In this document: one piece after another, positions 15,613 to 21,579 of the stretch
Position numbering within the stretch: the stretch's first letter is position 1
Layout of the letters: each line of letters starts with the position of its first letter
Assembly (NCBI GenBank): GCA_016218715.1
Contig: JACRDG010000008.1
Span: forward strand, 1 to 45,426
DNA: 45,426 nucleotides
Direction: 5' to 3'
From: Desulfomonile tiedjei
GTDB lineage: Bacteria > Desulfobacterota > Desulfomonilia > Desulfomonilales > Desulfomonilaceae
The notes under the pieces: generated by a model
Told to the model about the DNA's origin: nothing
Seen by the model: the letters and a program-made list of their open reading frames with translations, nothing else
Database searches by the model: none
Program-made: the position numbers and the translations under genes

Positions 15613-17592
15613 CTAGAAGTCAACTAGAAACCCGCTCTGAATAGCTACAAGAGCATCGATTGTCCTTCCAGGATTGCAGTACCGACCGCCGCTAAAACTA
15701 ATCGGTTCAGCGGGCCTTGATACATCTTGGTAGGCCCATTTGAACCAGTTCCCCGGCTGCCAGTGAGAAAACAAGAATCTGAAGGTAAGGTTCTCCAAGA
15801 GCCTCCAATCCATACCAAAACCCAGCTCCAACCCCAGGTCATTGTCAGGAACGCGGACTGGGCCGAACCGCTCTTCAAATGGCAAGTTGGGGTACACAGC
15901 CATATCGCGGTCCCGGAGAAAGATTCCGCTGTACATGCCTTTAATTGATCCAGTGTTGCTCGCCCTCTGCGCCCGCATCACCGTACCAAATAGGTTCAAG
16001 TTTGCGGCAACCGCGTAGTCTACGCGAAGGGCGTAAGACAGGAAATCCTGAAACGTGCAGTTACCTGCGCTGTTGTAAGAATTGTTCCCTCCTCCATACA
16101 AAGGCAGGAGAAAGCTGTACGGAGCCATGGGAGCTTGGCCTCCCCCCCACCGAGTGAGGAAGAAGTTCCAGCGATCATGTGATCGAAAGATCCTGCCCGG
16201 TTCTTCGGGGCGTGTGAAGGCACCCGTGCGTGAAACCGGATCAAAAGTCCCCCCGCGCACATCATGACCGCTACGATAGAAATGGGCCAGCGACAGTTTG
16301 AGCGGCCCCCCCCACGCGCCGGCCTCGATCGCCCACGCTTGCGGCCAGCCGCTAATCGGACGTGCTCCTTTTCGCCGAATTTCGACATTCTGGAGACCGT
16401 ACTCTGCATTCAGGAAAAATCGTCCATCTGTATACTTGAGATAGGCAGTGGCCAGAAGGAAGAACATGTCTCCATACACTGGTATCCTGAGGTCACCCAC
16501 CTGGCGTGCGAAATCGCCCATGAACCCACCGAACTGGCCAACGTTCGCGGCGCCGGTTGTTCGAACCATGCGAAAGAGGTTCGGATATAACGCATCGTCC
16601 CGCAGCGAACCTAGAGGAACTATCTGTCCGGTGTCCAGAGTCACGTAGTTGTAGGTGAGGCCATGTACATTGCTCCAACGCATGACGCGAACCATGGAGC
16701 CCATATCGAAATTGCCACTCTGGTATGTCAGAGCCGCTGCCTGATTCCAGTCCGCAACCTTGTTCTGATCCACCGCGGAGGATGTGGTGATCGGCCACTC
16801 GTTCTGAAAGGGAACGTAGTTCAAGAATCGGTCAAACACATTGGCGTCATTGTTGGGATCCGTGTCCTCTCCAGCGTCATGAAGATACTGGCTGATGGAG
16901 AATCTGAGCGCACCATAGGGAACCACAATCGAGAAGCCGGTGGCATAATTGTCTTTCTCGTGACTCACCCACCCCATGCCGAACCCTGCCGGGCGTCGGC
17001 CGTACACGAGGAAACCCCACGGGCTCTGAATTGTTATCCACAGGGCATTCAAGGTGGGGACCGCTATCGGGACACCGGCCACAACGTCCCGACTTTCGGG
17101 CATGATCCAGCCACTGTAGTGAGGGTTAGTCGCCCAATTCTCGCTCGGACCAATGTAGTATCCGCCTCGATCTAGTAAATCACGATTCTGACGCTCGGGT
17201 GAGTACAATCTGCCGAAGTTGCCATTGAGATTGCCCTGAAAGGAAATATGCCCTCTGAGAGTTATCGCGGGATTGATCGCAACTCTTGGATACACCCAGA
17301 GGCGCATCTCGTGATACGCCGCGTCGGCGCCCTTGGAGGAATACCCTTCCGCCTGGACGTACCGGTTATTGGGCCCCGCCAGTCCTATAGATGATTGGCG
17401 AAAAAGATTAGTTACTGTCACGTGAGTTTGGGCATAGTCCGCGTTGCCGAAAAGATCGTTCGGTCCTGTCCTGCTAATGTACCGATACCGCATCTCGTAC
17501 TCAGACTGCACTGAGAACTCCCACGCCATACTTGACAACGGTATGGCCGTGAGAACCAGAACGAGCGAGAGAACTGCTCCAGCCCCCTTCAT
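15613..17592 (-). CDS. Outer-membrane beta-barrel protein, function unknown
   Basis: A 659-residue exported protein. The signal peptide (hydrophobic VLSLVLVLTAIPLSSMA) ends near residue 23. The rest is rich in aromatic residues and short alternating polar/hydrophobic stretches such as FSVQSEYEMRYRYI and LRVDYAVAANLNLFGTVM, and it ends in phenylalanine, the usual signal of outer-membrane barrels. The final strands (LGLELGFGMDWRLLENLTFRF) look like closing barrel strands. I do not recognise a named porin family, and no partner gene is adjacent. A passive pore or an assembly-type barrel are both possible. A strong promoter lies about 140 bases upstream on the same strand. Confidence 0.8.
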   Translation of the reverse strand: MKGAGAVLSLVLVLTAIPLSSMAWEFSVQSEYEMRYRYISRTGPNDLFGNADYAQTHVTVTNLFRQSSIGLAGPNNRYVQAEGYSSKGADAAYHEMRLWVYPRVAINPAITLRGHISFQGNLNGNFGRLYSPERQNRDLLDRGGYYIGPSENWATNPHYSGWIMPESRDVVAGVPIAVPTLNALWITIQSPWGFLVYGRRPAGFGMGWVSHEKDNYATGFSIVVPYGALRFSISQYLHDAGEDTDPNNDANVFDRFLNYVPFQNEWPITTSSAVDQNKVADWNQAAALTYQSGNFDMGSMVRVMRWSNVHGLTYNYVTLDTGQIVPLGSLRDDALYPNLFRMVRTTGAANVGQFGGFMGDFARQVGDLRIPVYGDMFFLLATAYLKYTDGRFFLNAEYGLQNVEIRRKGARPISGWPQAWAIEAGAWGGPLKLSLAHFYRSGHDVRGGTFDPVSRTGAFTRPEEPGRIFRSHDRWNFFLTRWGGGQAPMAPYSFLLPLYGGGNNSYNSAGNCTFQDFLSYALRVDYAVAANLNLFGTVMRAQRASNTGSIKGMYSGIFLRDRDMAVYPNLPFEERFGPVRVPDNDLGLELGFGMDWRLLENLTFRFLFSHWQPGNWFKWAYQDVSRPAEPISFSGGRYCNPGRTIDALVAIQSGFLVDF

Positions 17593-17995: not shown

Positions 17996-18610
17996 ATGAA
18001 GGAGGTGGATGTCAGAAAGGGGGCAATCATTGGAGTTACGTTGTTGTTGCTGGTCGGCACCCCCGGGGGTGCAGCGTCCTTCATGCTGATCAGTCCTCAG
18101 GTAGGTGAGGGTGGAAGTCTCGGACCGGACCAGGTCATTTCCGGTTGTGGCTGCTCCGGCAAGAACATCTCCCCGGTTGTGGAATGGAAGGACTGGACGA
18201 AGGGCACCAAGTGTTTCGCCGTCACCGTCTACGACCCGGGTGCCCCCATCGGCAGGGGCTGGTAGCATTGGCAGTATTTCAACATCCCCTCAGGTGTTCA
18301 CGCTCTTCCTGCCAACGCCGGAGCCGTTGCTGCCGGCTTGGCACCGAAAGGCAGCATTCCGAACATGACCGATTTCGGGAAACGCGGCTTTGGCGGAGCC
18401 TGTCCACCGAAGGGCCACAAACCTCATCGTTCTCAGTTCACGGTCTTTGCCCTCTGTGTCGACAAGCTCCCTCTTGATGCTTCCGCGCCCGCAGCCATGG
18501 TAGGATTATTTCTAAACCAGCATACCCTGGGGAGAGCGACCTTGACCGGGTACTTCTCCCGCGGGGAGGGAACCCGGTCTGGAACGGATACCGGCGCCCG
18601 CTGGCGATGA
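17996..18610 (+). pseudogene. PEBP / YbhB-YbcL (Raf kinase inhibitor-like) gene with one in-frame amber codon
   Basis: The frame encodes a complete exported PEBP-family protein of about 204 residues, but TAG at 18263-18265 interrupts it. The N-terminal part has a hydrophobic signal (GAIIGVTLLLLVGTPGGAAS) and the core motifs NISPVVEW and VTVYDPGAPIGRGW. After the TAG the same frame continues HWQYFNIPSG, then NMTDFGKRGFGGACPPKG and a normal C-terminus. In the family this spot reads GWWHW, so the TAG stands where the second Trp (TGG) is expected: a single G-to-A change. No frameshift is needed. It could be a recent pseudogene, a read-through gene or a sequencing error. The perfect ribosome-binding sequence AAGGAGGTGG (17999-18008) lies inside the first codons, so the true start is unclear. 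Confidence 0.8.
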
Positions 18611-18649: not shown

Positions 18650-18964
18650 ATGATTACGGCACTTGTTCAGTTCAAACTCCCGGAAGTGGTTACCCGAGAC
18701 AAAGCGCGGGAGGTGTTTTCAGGCACCGCCCCCAGGTATCGGGAGGTGCCGGGACTTATCCGAAAGTATTACCTCCTGTCCGAAGACGGCCGAACTGCGG
18801 GAGGCGTGTACTTGTGGAAGTCTCGCGAGGATGCTCAACGCCTGTACACGGGCGAATGGAAGAAATTTATTTTGGACAAATACGGCGCGGAGCCGTCCGT
18901 CACGTATTTCGAAACGCCCGTAATCGTTGATAACCTGGCCGGTGAAATCATAGCGGACGAATGA
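18650..18964 (+). CDS. YdhR-like putative monooxygenase, small dimeric alpha/beta barrel protein
   Basis: A 104-residue cytoplasmic protein. The pattern MITALVQFKLP, then VPGLIRKYYLLSEDG, then AGGVYLWKSREDAQRLYTGEW matches the YdhR/antibiotic-biosynthesis-monooxygenase-like ferredoxin fold that forms dimers. Relatives have been proposed to be cofactor-free monooxygenases, but for most no activity has been shown. GAGGAGAGG lies upstream of ATG 18650, so the start is firm. It lies 39 bases after the PEBP frame and probably shares its transcript. Function is inferred from fold only. Confidence 0.75.
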   Translation: MITALVQFKLPEVVTRDKAREVFSGTAPRYREVPGLIRKYYLLSEDGRTAGGVYLWKSREDAQRLYTGEWKKFILDKYGAEPSVTYFETPVIVDNLAGEIIADE

Positions 18965-19056
18965 TGCCGATTCGTGTGCAAGCAATCTGGGCAGGAGCTC
19001 CTTGAAAAAAGGATTCTCGCCGGATTACTTCTTTGAAAGCGAGTCGGTATGCACCC

Positions 19057-20487
19057 TCACTTTGCATGCGGTTCGTTCATGAACAGGTACTGGCCCACGT
19101 AGTGCACGCCGTGAAACAGGCGTCTGAAGTCCTCCAGGTTGGTAAGCGCTCCTCTTAGTTGACGGAGAATGGTCGCGGGCCGCAGGTAGTAGGTTCTCCA
19201 GGCCTGGTGGGTCAAGCGGTTGATCTCGTCTGCGGAAAGCTCGGGATAGTCATAGCGTGCGGTCAGGTGCCCGGTTGAGGTGATGCCGGTCTCACGGTGG
19301 AGGAATCCCTCGTCCCGAAGATAATCGTTGAAAGCGGTACCCTCGTACGCCGACGCAATGGCAAACTGGACGGTATCGGGCGCCAGTTCCAGCGCATAGT
19401 CCAAAGTTTGTTTGGCAGTCTCCTTCGTTTCCCCCGGTAATCCGAAGACGAAACAGCCATGCACCCGCAGCCCGGCCCGACGGCAGTCGTCCCGGAACGC
19501 ACGGGCGCGCTGCGTGCGCACTCCTTTGCGGGCTCGCTGAAGAATCTCGTTACTCCCGGATTCGAACCCCACCACCAGATTCCGCGCACCGGATTGCTTC
19601 ATGGCGTGCAACACATCTGCGCGCAGTTCGGGCCGAGCACAACACGACCACGTGATGTCTCTCCCCCGAAGCGCGTCGCAGAGTTCGAGGACACGACCGG
19701 GATCGCAGGTAAACGTATCGTCTTCGATCTGAATCTCGCGCACCTGCGGCAGCATGGTGTGTATCCAGATCATCTCTTCGGCCACATCCGCGATCGACCG
19801 GGTGCGGTACCGATGTCCCGAGATGGTCTGCGGCCACAAGCAGTAACAGCACCGGCCCGGGCACCCTCTTCCCGACAAGATGGAAATGTACGGGTAGTTG
19901 AGGTACGGGATCCTGTAGCGAAGCAGCGGCAAATCCCGCCTGATGATGCGGGAAACCCAGGGGAGGGAATCCAGATCGTCCAGTTTGGCAGCCTCGCCAT
20001 TGTGTACGATGCGATCTCCTTCTTTCCACGAGAGCCCACTGATGTCCCGGAGCGGCCAATCGTCGCACAACGCGCGAAGCGCCTCTTCCACCTCGCCCCG
20101 GATGACCACGTCCACCCCTTGCTCGGCAAGAACTCTCTCAGGGAGCACAGTACTGTACGGCCCGGCAAAGGCAATGAGCGAGCGCTTCTTGGAATCATGC
20201 AGGAGCCGCGCGGTCTCCTGGTCGTACCCGATGGTCTCCTGGTTGGCGTAGAAGACGTAGATGTCGTAGTCGGGAACCGAGCGAAGGAACTCCTCGCGGG
20301 AGAGGCCTTCCACGTTGCAGTCCATGGCCCGAGCGGTGGGGACGGAACCGGCCGCGTAGCATATCCAGATCGGTATCCAGTGACTGGCTCGTCTACCGTC
20401 CGCGTTATACGTTGCCTGAAAGCGCCCTCCTGCTACCGAGTCCATGCTGGGGATATTCGGAGGAACCAATACAAGGGCGCTCTTCAT
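19057..20487 (-). CDS. B12-binding-domain radical SAM protein (HpnJ-like)
   Basis: A 476-residue enzyme. The N-terminal 150 residues form a cobalamin-binding-like Rossmann domain. A radical SAM domain follows, with the cluster motif Cys209-xxx-Cys213-xx-Cys216 in GCPGRCCYCLWPQ. The run CLWPQTISGHRYRTRS is very like HpnJ, a hopanoid-associated radical SAM enzyme, and GFESGSNEIL is the glycine-rich SAM contact. HpnJ itself helps make the bacteriohopanetetrol side chain, but no other hopanoid gene is in this window, so the precise reaction is unknown. It begins 15 bases after prfA ends, on the same strand, in the place where prmC is often found. Confidence 0.8.
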   Translation of the reverse strand: MKSALVLVPPNIPSMDSVAGGRFQATYNADGRRASHWIPIWICYAAGSVPTARAMDCNVEGLSREEFLRSVPDYDIYVFYANQETIGYDQETARLLHDSKKRSLIAFAGPYSTVLPERVLAEQGVDVVIRGEVEEALRALCDDWPLRDISGLSWKEGDRIVHNGEAAKLDDLDSLPWVSRIIRRDLPLLRYRIPYLNYPYISILSGRGCPGRCCYCLWPQTISGHRYRTRSIADVAEEMIWIHTMLPQVREIQIEDDTFTCDPGRVLELCDALRGRDITWSCCARPELRADVLHAMKQSGARNLVVGFESGSNEILQRARKGVRTQRARAFRDDCRRAGLRVHGCFVFGLPGETKETAKQTLDYALELAPDTVQFAIASAYEGTAFNDYLRDEGFLHRETGITSTGHLTARYDYPELSADEINRLTHQAWRTYYLRPATILRQLRGALTNLEDFRRLFHGVHYVGQYLFMNEPHAK

Positions 20488-20502: not shown

Positions 20503-21579
20503 TTATGAGAGGCTTTCAGCCATGGCCTGGGTCTGGAAGTGAATGGCAAGAGGGTCGATGATGTCGTCCAGTTCCCCTTCCAGGACGCTCTCCAGCCGGT
20601 AAATCGTAAGATTGATGCGGTGGTCGGTGACCCGATTCTGCGGAAAATTGTAAGTCCTGATACGCTCGGAACGGTCCCCTGAGCCGACCTGGCTCTTGCG
20701 TTCCCTGCTGATCTTGGCCTGGCGTTCATCTTCCATCAGTGCGAGCAACCGCGCGCGCAGGATCTTGATAGCTTTGGCCTTGTTCTTGTGCTGGGACTTC
20801 TCGTCCTGGCACGTAACCACGATATTGGTCGGAATATGGGTCACCCGCACGGCGGAGTCAGTCGTGTTGACGCTTTGCCCACCCGGTCCTGAGGAGCGAT
20901 AGACGTCGATCTTCAGGTCCTTCGGGTCGATCTCCACATCCACATCTTCGGCTTCGGGGAGAACCGCCACGGTCACCGCGGAGGTGTGTATACGGCCCTG
21001 GGACTCGGTGGACGGGACTCGCTGCACCCGATGAACCCCTCGTTCGTACTTCAATCGGGAGTATGCGCCGCGACCGTGTACCAGCGCCACGACCTCTTTG
21101 ATTCCTCCCGCGGAAGCCATGGACGACGACATCATCTCCACGCGCCAGCCCCTGGATTCTGCATACTTTCCGTATGCCCTGAACAGATCCGCGGCAAAGA
21201 GCGCAGCCTCTTCGCCGCCGGTGCCGGCACGAATTTCGAGGAACGTGTTCTTCGCGTCGTTGGGATCTTTGGGCAGAAGGAGCACCGAGAGCGATTTCTC
21301 GAGCTTGGCCCGCTTCTCCTGCAGCACGAGGAGATCTTCCCGCGCAAGCTCCACGAGCTCGCCGTCCGCATCGTCCGCGATGATCGTTTCCAGTTCTTCG
21401 GTTTCTCGCAGGACCTCGCTGAGATCGCGATATACCTTGACAATTTCGTCCAGGTCCGACTGCTCTTTGGAAAGCTTCCTGAGCTTGTCCAGATCGGTCT
21501 GGACTTCCGGCCGCGCCAATTCTGTGTCGAGCTCTTCGTAGCGGCGACTAATTTCTTCTAATTTTGCGAGCACTTGCAT
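20503..21579 (-). CDS. prfA: Peptide chain release factor 1
   Basis: Recognises UAA and UAG stop codons in the ribosome and triggers peptide release. The 358-residue product is of normal RF1 length. It has the codon-recognition tripeptide PST (189-191) in [14 protein letters not shown] and the catalytic GGQ at 233-235 in [12 protein letters not shown]. The tail ending [12 protein letters not shown] is also typical. The gene follows the DUF1385 gene by 9 bases and precedes the radical SAM gene by 15 bases. The N5-glutamine methyltransferase gene prmC, which modifies the GGQ and commonly follows prfA, is absent here. No clear ribosome-binding site precedes ATG 21579, so translation may depend on coupling. 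Confidence 0.97.

Follow-up and report, generated by a model that had tools for sequence, protein, structure and literature searches.

A YbcL-like PEBP gene of Desulfomonile tiedjei with an in-frame amber codon: a probable pseudogene in progress

An interrupted PEBP gene and its surroundings

The stretch of DNA analyzed here (the window, 45,426 nt) corresponds to the entire contig C26 of a genome assembly of 5,553,262 bases in 124 contigs (99.99% complete, 3.71% contamination). As listed in Table 1, it carries on the forward strand a PEBP reading frame (17996–18610) which extends from an ATG to a TGA at 18608–18610 and is interrupted solely by a TAG at codon 90 of 205. No other stop or frameshift falls within the PEBP domain, frame and length being otherwise retained, and reading through the TAG yields a product of 204 residues.

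This read-through product scored above the cut-offs of PF01161 (E 3.6e-30, 105.5 bits, cut-off 24) and of TIGR00481 (YbhB/YbcL; 113.8 bits, cut-off 57.75), and Escherichia coli YbcL (1fux) aligned to its residues 27–186 (E 3.2e-46); in this alignment the TAG faces the second W of the GWWHW block. These matches are far above chance. We take the structure chains 1fux and 1fjj to be YbcL and YbhB, respectively; the structure listing assigns YbhB to 1vi3. Likeness to YbcL further includes the GGACPPKG motif, and YbhB (1vi3) shares the GWWHW block over aligned residues 28–191. The window gene differs from both by the TAG within GWWHW, by DPGAP in place of DPDAP, by additional C-terminal residues, and by HRS in place of HRY (HHY in 1fux itself). 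A first-pass annotation of this DNA had described a full-length PEBP gene with one amber codon at a tryptophan position, on which reading frame, profiles and the 1fux alignment agree; the locus nonetheless lacks the unbroken reading frame of a PEBP family member.

The true 5' end of the gene is unsure, since the best Shine-Dalgarno-like stretch (AAGGAGGTG) lies within the frame and the ATG that follows it, at 18009, is out of the PEBP frame. This arrangement may represent another lesion or may be meaningless.

Table 1. Features in and around the interrupted PEBP gene (window coordinates)
Feature	Position	Strand	Basis
ORF of 659 residues, no Pfam/NCBIfam match at E<=0.001	15613–17592		Profile searches
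PEBP (YbcL-like) gene, 5' part: putative signal peptide and start of domain, codons 1–89	17996–18262	+	Frame, profiles, 1fux alignment; signal peptide by eye
Shine-Dalgarno-like stretch, within the frame just 3' of ATG 17996	17999–18007	+	Sequence inspection
Codon 68 ACG, Thr; Pro in 40/40 homologues (P68T)	18197–18199	+	Column comparison
Codon 82 GGT, Gly; Asp in 40/40, second D of DPDAP (D82G)	18239–18241	+	Column comparison; PMC8793217 for family role
Amber codon TAG, in frame, opposite second W of GWWHW	18263–18265	+	Sequence and alignments
PEBP gene, 3' part, frame unchanged, up to TGA	18266–18610	+	Frame and alignments
Codon 146 TCT, Ser; Tyr in 40/40 homologues, HRY (Y146S)	18431–18433	+	Column comparison
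C-terminal overrun beyond usual family end, from residue 190	18563–18607	+	Alignments, tail counts
Small ORF directly 3' of broken gene, YdhR-like monooxygenase	18650–18964		PF08803 32.6 bits, cut-off 27.1
Dispersed intergenic repeat family, ~70 bases	18981–19051		Recurrence in genome
B12-binding radical SAM protein, nearest HpnJ	19057–20487		448.8 bits, below 577.6 cut-off
prfA, release factor 1 (RF1)	20503–21579	-	TIGR00019 533.7 bits, cut-off 423.25

The block formed by rho, DUF1385, prfA and the radical-SAM gene is also present in a relative (G003; 72–93% protein identity), without a PEBP hit on its 17-kb stretch or on three other stretches compared, and the PEBP protein found no match anywhere in G003. 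The contig thus fits its lineage, with the PEBP gene at a site where G003 has none. Across the class, a homologue at E<=1e-35 was found in one of 41 other genomes (G032, with W at the column of codon 90), and four of 17 relatives of the same family gave any PEBP-like match at E<=0.001 (best E-values 3e-15 to 4e-18); across the phylum, eight of 395 genomes, the source genome included, matched at E<=1e-30. The TAG-bearing gene is the sole PF01161 match in its genome, and no intact second PEBP copy was found there, the protein likewise giving one match. Sparse distribution in class and phylum, together with the G003 block devoid of PEBP, point to a patchy accessory gene, probably of a kind that is easily lost.

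Several features of the neighbourhood were recorded alongside. Homologues of the YdhR-like ORF occur in two relatives (63% in G004 and 69% in G017), the stretches compared being without a PEBP hit. Pieces of the intergenic repeat (37–68 bases) recur at eight other places in the genome with 81–89% identity, and at four places in the relative G005 with 78–96% identity. The radical SAM gene adjoins prfA both in the window and in G003. Beside YbcL-like genes of plasmids and a phage, an AraC-type or helix-turn-helix regulator gene was present in six of the 13 regions fetched (L090, L091, L092, L095, L096 and L101), two of the 13 being without annotated features.

Residues and branch lengths compared with homologues

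Two alignment sets were compared with the window gene: 22 YbcL-like homologues, of which one belongs to the same class, seven come from the phylum and one from the genome_contigs set, 11 are plasmid and two are phage sequences (these last 13 rows being hand-picked from 211 and seven matching records), and a wider set of 40 which adds 18 PEBP sequences from the class. Both sets are small and their rows are not independent of each other.

A stop at the column of codon 90 was found in none of the 22 and in none of the 40, so that the TAG is premature relative to all homologues compared. The residue at this column is W in 19, V in two and R in one of the YbcL-like homologues, and 21 members of the wider set of 40 carry Val, Thr or Arg. 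The tryptophan described as conserved by the first-pass annotation is therefore a feature of the subfamily and not invariant in the family. In four of the 22 YbcL-like rows the first-matched piece did contain a stop, always C-terminal, where the match had overrun the natural stop. Of the 31 matches to the protein among 40 relatives, none of them from the same genus, 19 were read at the TAG column, as were all seven further matches from the phylum search; every one of these has a residue at the column, and the same TAG, which had been proposed as a check, was not seen.

The TAG is real in the assembly, and the remainder of the gene is not intact. Within the core (residues 51–188), 12 columns are invariant among the 40 homologues when codon 90 is left out and gaps are ignored; the window gene alters three of these, whereas 38 homologues alter none and two alter one. 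Leave-one-out counts, in which a gap was scored as a deviation, put the window gene at three of 19 invariant columns in the 22-homologue set, where no homologue exceeds two of 21, and at five of 34 compared to at most three of 37 in a closer set of 15 from which seven divergent rows had been dropped. These substitutions do not accord with the earlier statement that all family motifs are kept, as the gene carries DPGAP for DPDAP, HRS for HRY, and Thr for an invariant Pro.

One of the substitutions concerns a position treated in a review of the family. PMC8793217 describes five nearly invariant polar residues of PEBPs (D71, D73, H87, H118 and R119 in Arabidopsis FT), a D73–R119 salt bridge in FT, and substitutions in this quintet as exceedingly rare. 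Judged by the motifs, the five residues would correspond to D80, D82, H91, H144 and R145 of the window gene. In its read-through frame D80, H91, H144 and R145 are kept and D82 is replaced by Gly, so that the complete Asp/His/Arg quintet is absent. The same review reports multiple replacements in two family groups, which counts against reading the change as decay, and the substitutions could belong to a diverged yet functional protein.

The C-terminal end also departs from the family. Beyond the residue 188 column, the window gene has a tail of 16 residues compared to 0–7 in 39 homologues, 35 of which have two residues or fewer; tails were counted from DNA in 39 of the 40 homologues, with L020, cut by a contig end, omitted. 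Thus, of the earlier description of one frame running through to a normal end, the open frame up to the TGA stands and the normal end does not.

The window gene further sits on a long branch within its group. In a tree including divergent rows, its terminal branch measures 0.80 vs 0.36, 0.12 and 0.31 for its three group mates, and divergent intact rows reach up to 2.06. In a core-domain tree of 17 rows (six divergent rows dropped, codon 90 masked), the branch of the window gene (0.83) is the longest of the 17 (group mates 0.32, 0.079 and 0.24), two intact rows outside the group have branches of 0.73 and 0.77, and support for the group is modest (86/96). With the half before the stop, its branch is again the longest of the 17 (1.0) and the gene is not placed with its group; with the half after the stop it measures 0.68, and two intact rows are longer (up to 0.87). 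No relative close enough for dN/dS was found, the genome_contigs scan having returned one locus at 39% identity, and searches with the DNA around the gene gave no match among plasmids and phages. Signs of relaxed constraint are thus present as indirect indicators, namely the three of 12 columns, the overrun and the long within-group branch.

Altogether, the earlier statement that the rest of the gene has not decayed is contradicted by P68T, D82G, Y146S, the long within-group branch and the 16-residue overrun. The first-pass annotation had named further damage in related strains, a sign of simple pseudogenisation, as a refuting observation; damage of this kind is present within the window gene itself.

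The reading of TAG in this genome

An in-frame TAG in an otherwise open frame may be decoded as an amino acid, by pyrrolysine insertion or by an amber-suppressor tRNA. A PylS-model search of the genome gave best matches of 24 and 20.4 bits (cut-off 178.15), both of which fall in the genes of threonine- and lysine-tRNA ligases (ThrRS, LysRS), and a PylD-model search reached 18.5 bits (cut-off 150.05); each of the two models did exceed its cut-off in one of the 14 genomes used as controls. The tRNA model matched 43 times, with 40 matches above the gathering score, 39 of which were named by ARAGORN; the one left, truncated where its contig ends, reads as a tRNA-Thr (GGT) by eye, and the three weaker matches comprise one tRNA-Sec and two without a tRNA call. 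No CUA anticodon is present among the 40, and the sole named tRNA-Trp has CCA. As no tRNA-Asp or tRNA-Ile is found among the named tRNAs, the recovered list is incomplete, and the finding that PylS, PylD and a CUA tRNA of a pyrrolysine-decoding system are missing is to be read with this incomplete tRNA set in mind.

RF1 is the factor that terminates translation at TAG, and its gene lies in the window itself. In a sample of 445,426 bases, TAG is the terminator of 71 of 294 predicted genes, which were called by codon scores and not taken from annotation, and it ends 28 of the 129 long frames used to train these calls. PylS and PylD models below cut-off, the absence of a CUA tRNA, the presence of prfA and the common use of TAG as a terminator make it very unlikely that TAG is a sense codon here, and the suppressor or pyrrolysine reading, already considered unlikely in the first-pass annotation, was rejected. 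Besides the in-frame TAG itself, nothing but a recovered tRNA set without Asp or Ile leaves room for a decoded TAG, the probability of which we regard as very small.

The tRNA-Sec (G000 C59:15423–15516) scored 71.3 bits (cut-off 47). Selenoproteins may hence be present, and UGA codons of the organism merit care in annotation.

A codon-score scan for other broken genes over the same 445,426 bases (a 400-kb sample plus the window) returned seven candidates (five TGA, two TAG). Upon examination by eye, five of these resemble boundaries between neighbouring genes and one resembles an antisense shadow; the remaining candidate falls where the DUF1385 gene ends, next to prfA. The scan missed the PEBP TAG, with scores of 4.9 before and -0.6 after the codon (threshold 8); given this insensitivity, it provides nothing strong on how rare such stops are.

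Decay of the gene and competing readings

In all likelihood, the locus is a YbcL-like PEBP pseudogene in progress, that is, an accessory gene in mid-decay. Translation from the 5' end would halt at the TAG through the action of RF1 and release an 89-residue fragment from which the two signature histidines and the arginine are missing; the 3' part would remain untranslated or be translated at background readthrough only. Since D82 is Gly and termination at codon 90 removes H91, H144 and R145, the truncated product would lack four residues of the quintet. Substitutions of residues kept by all homologues compared occur before as well as after the stop, which suggests that selection on the gene has been relaxed. 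Decay would not be far advanced, as the identity shared with homologues differs little between the two sides of the TAG (for instance, 35/60 before and 59/99 after with L083). A lack of function in the fragment is our inference, as is the sequence in which events occurred.

A function of the fragment itself would be consistent with the plausible signal peptide, assigned by eye, which it retains. Such a product would, however, end within the domain, before H91, H144 and R145, and would carry P68T and D82G, and we consider this possibility exceedingly faint.

A sequencing or assembly error, in which case the cell would have a sense codon and a whole gene, is unlikely. The assembly is split into 124 contigs and a single base suffices to explain the TAG, but the TAG is a substitution outside any homopolymer, and it plays no part in the losses at invariant columns, the overrun or the long branch, which an error at this base would leave unexplained.

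A further reading holds that leaky or regulated readthrough supplies a low level of useful full-length protein. PMC7918605 proposes useful readthrough in some bacterial genes carrying in-frame stops, and the window gene resembles these genes in having a single stop flanked by open frame; the retained frame and the comparable identity of the two halves to homologues are in line with this. According to the same paper, many of those genes are under purifying selection, whereas the window gene has lost residues that are otherwise invariant. Three residues would be missing from a full-length product, namely D82, which belongs to the nearly invariant quintet, P68 and Y146, and a stop at this position is absent from all 40 homologues. 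With the overrun and the long branch in addition, read-through would not yield a standard PEBP protein. We regard this reading as quite improbable. There is a similarly slim, if anything slimmer, chance that readthrough yields small amounts of a complete PEBP variant which lacks the usual Asp and Tyr and has taken on a new role, with the stop setting its level.

Taken together, the in-frame stop and the loss of three residues kept by every homologue compared argue for an ordinary dying gene rather than unusual decoding. What appeared as a possible lead to recoding is hence settled as, most likely, ordinary gene decay. A gene with a single stop that looks pristine by eye can carry losses of invariant residues which are revealed by column-by-column comparison, and caution is warranted against annotating this locus as recoded or as encoding a functional PEBP.
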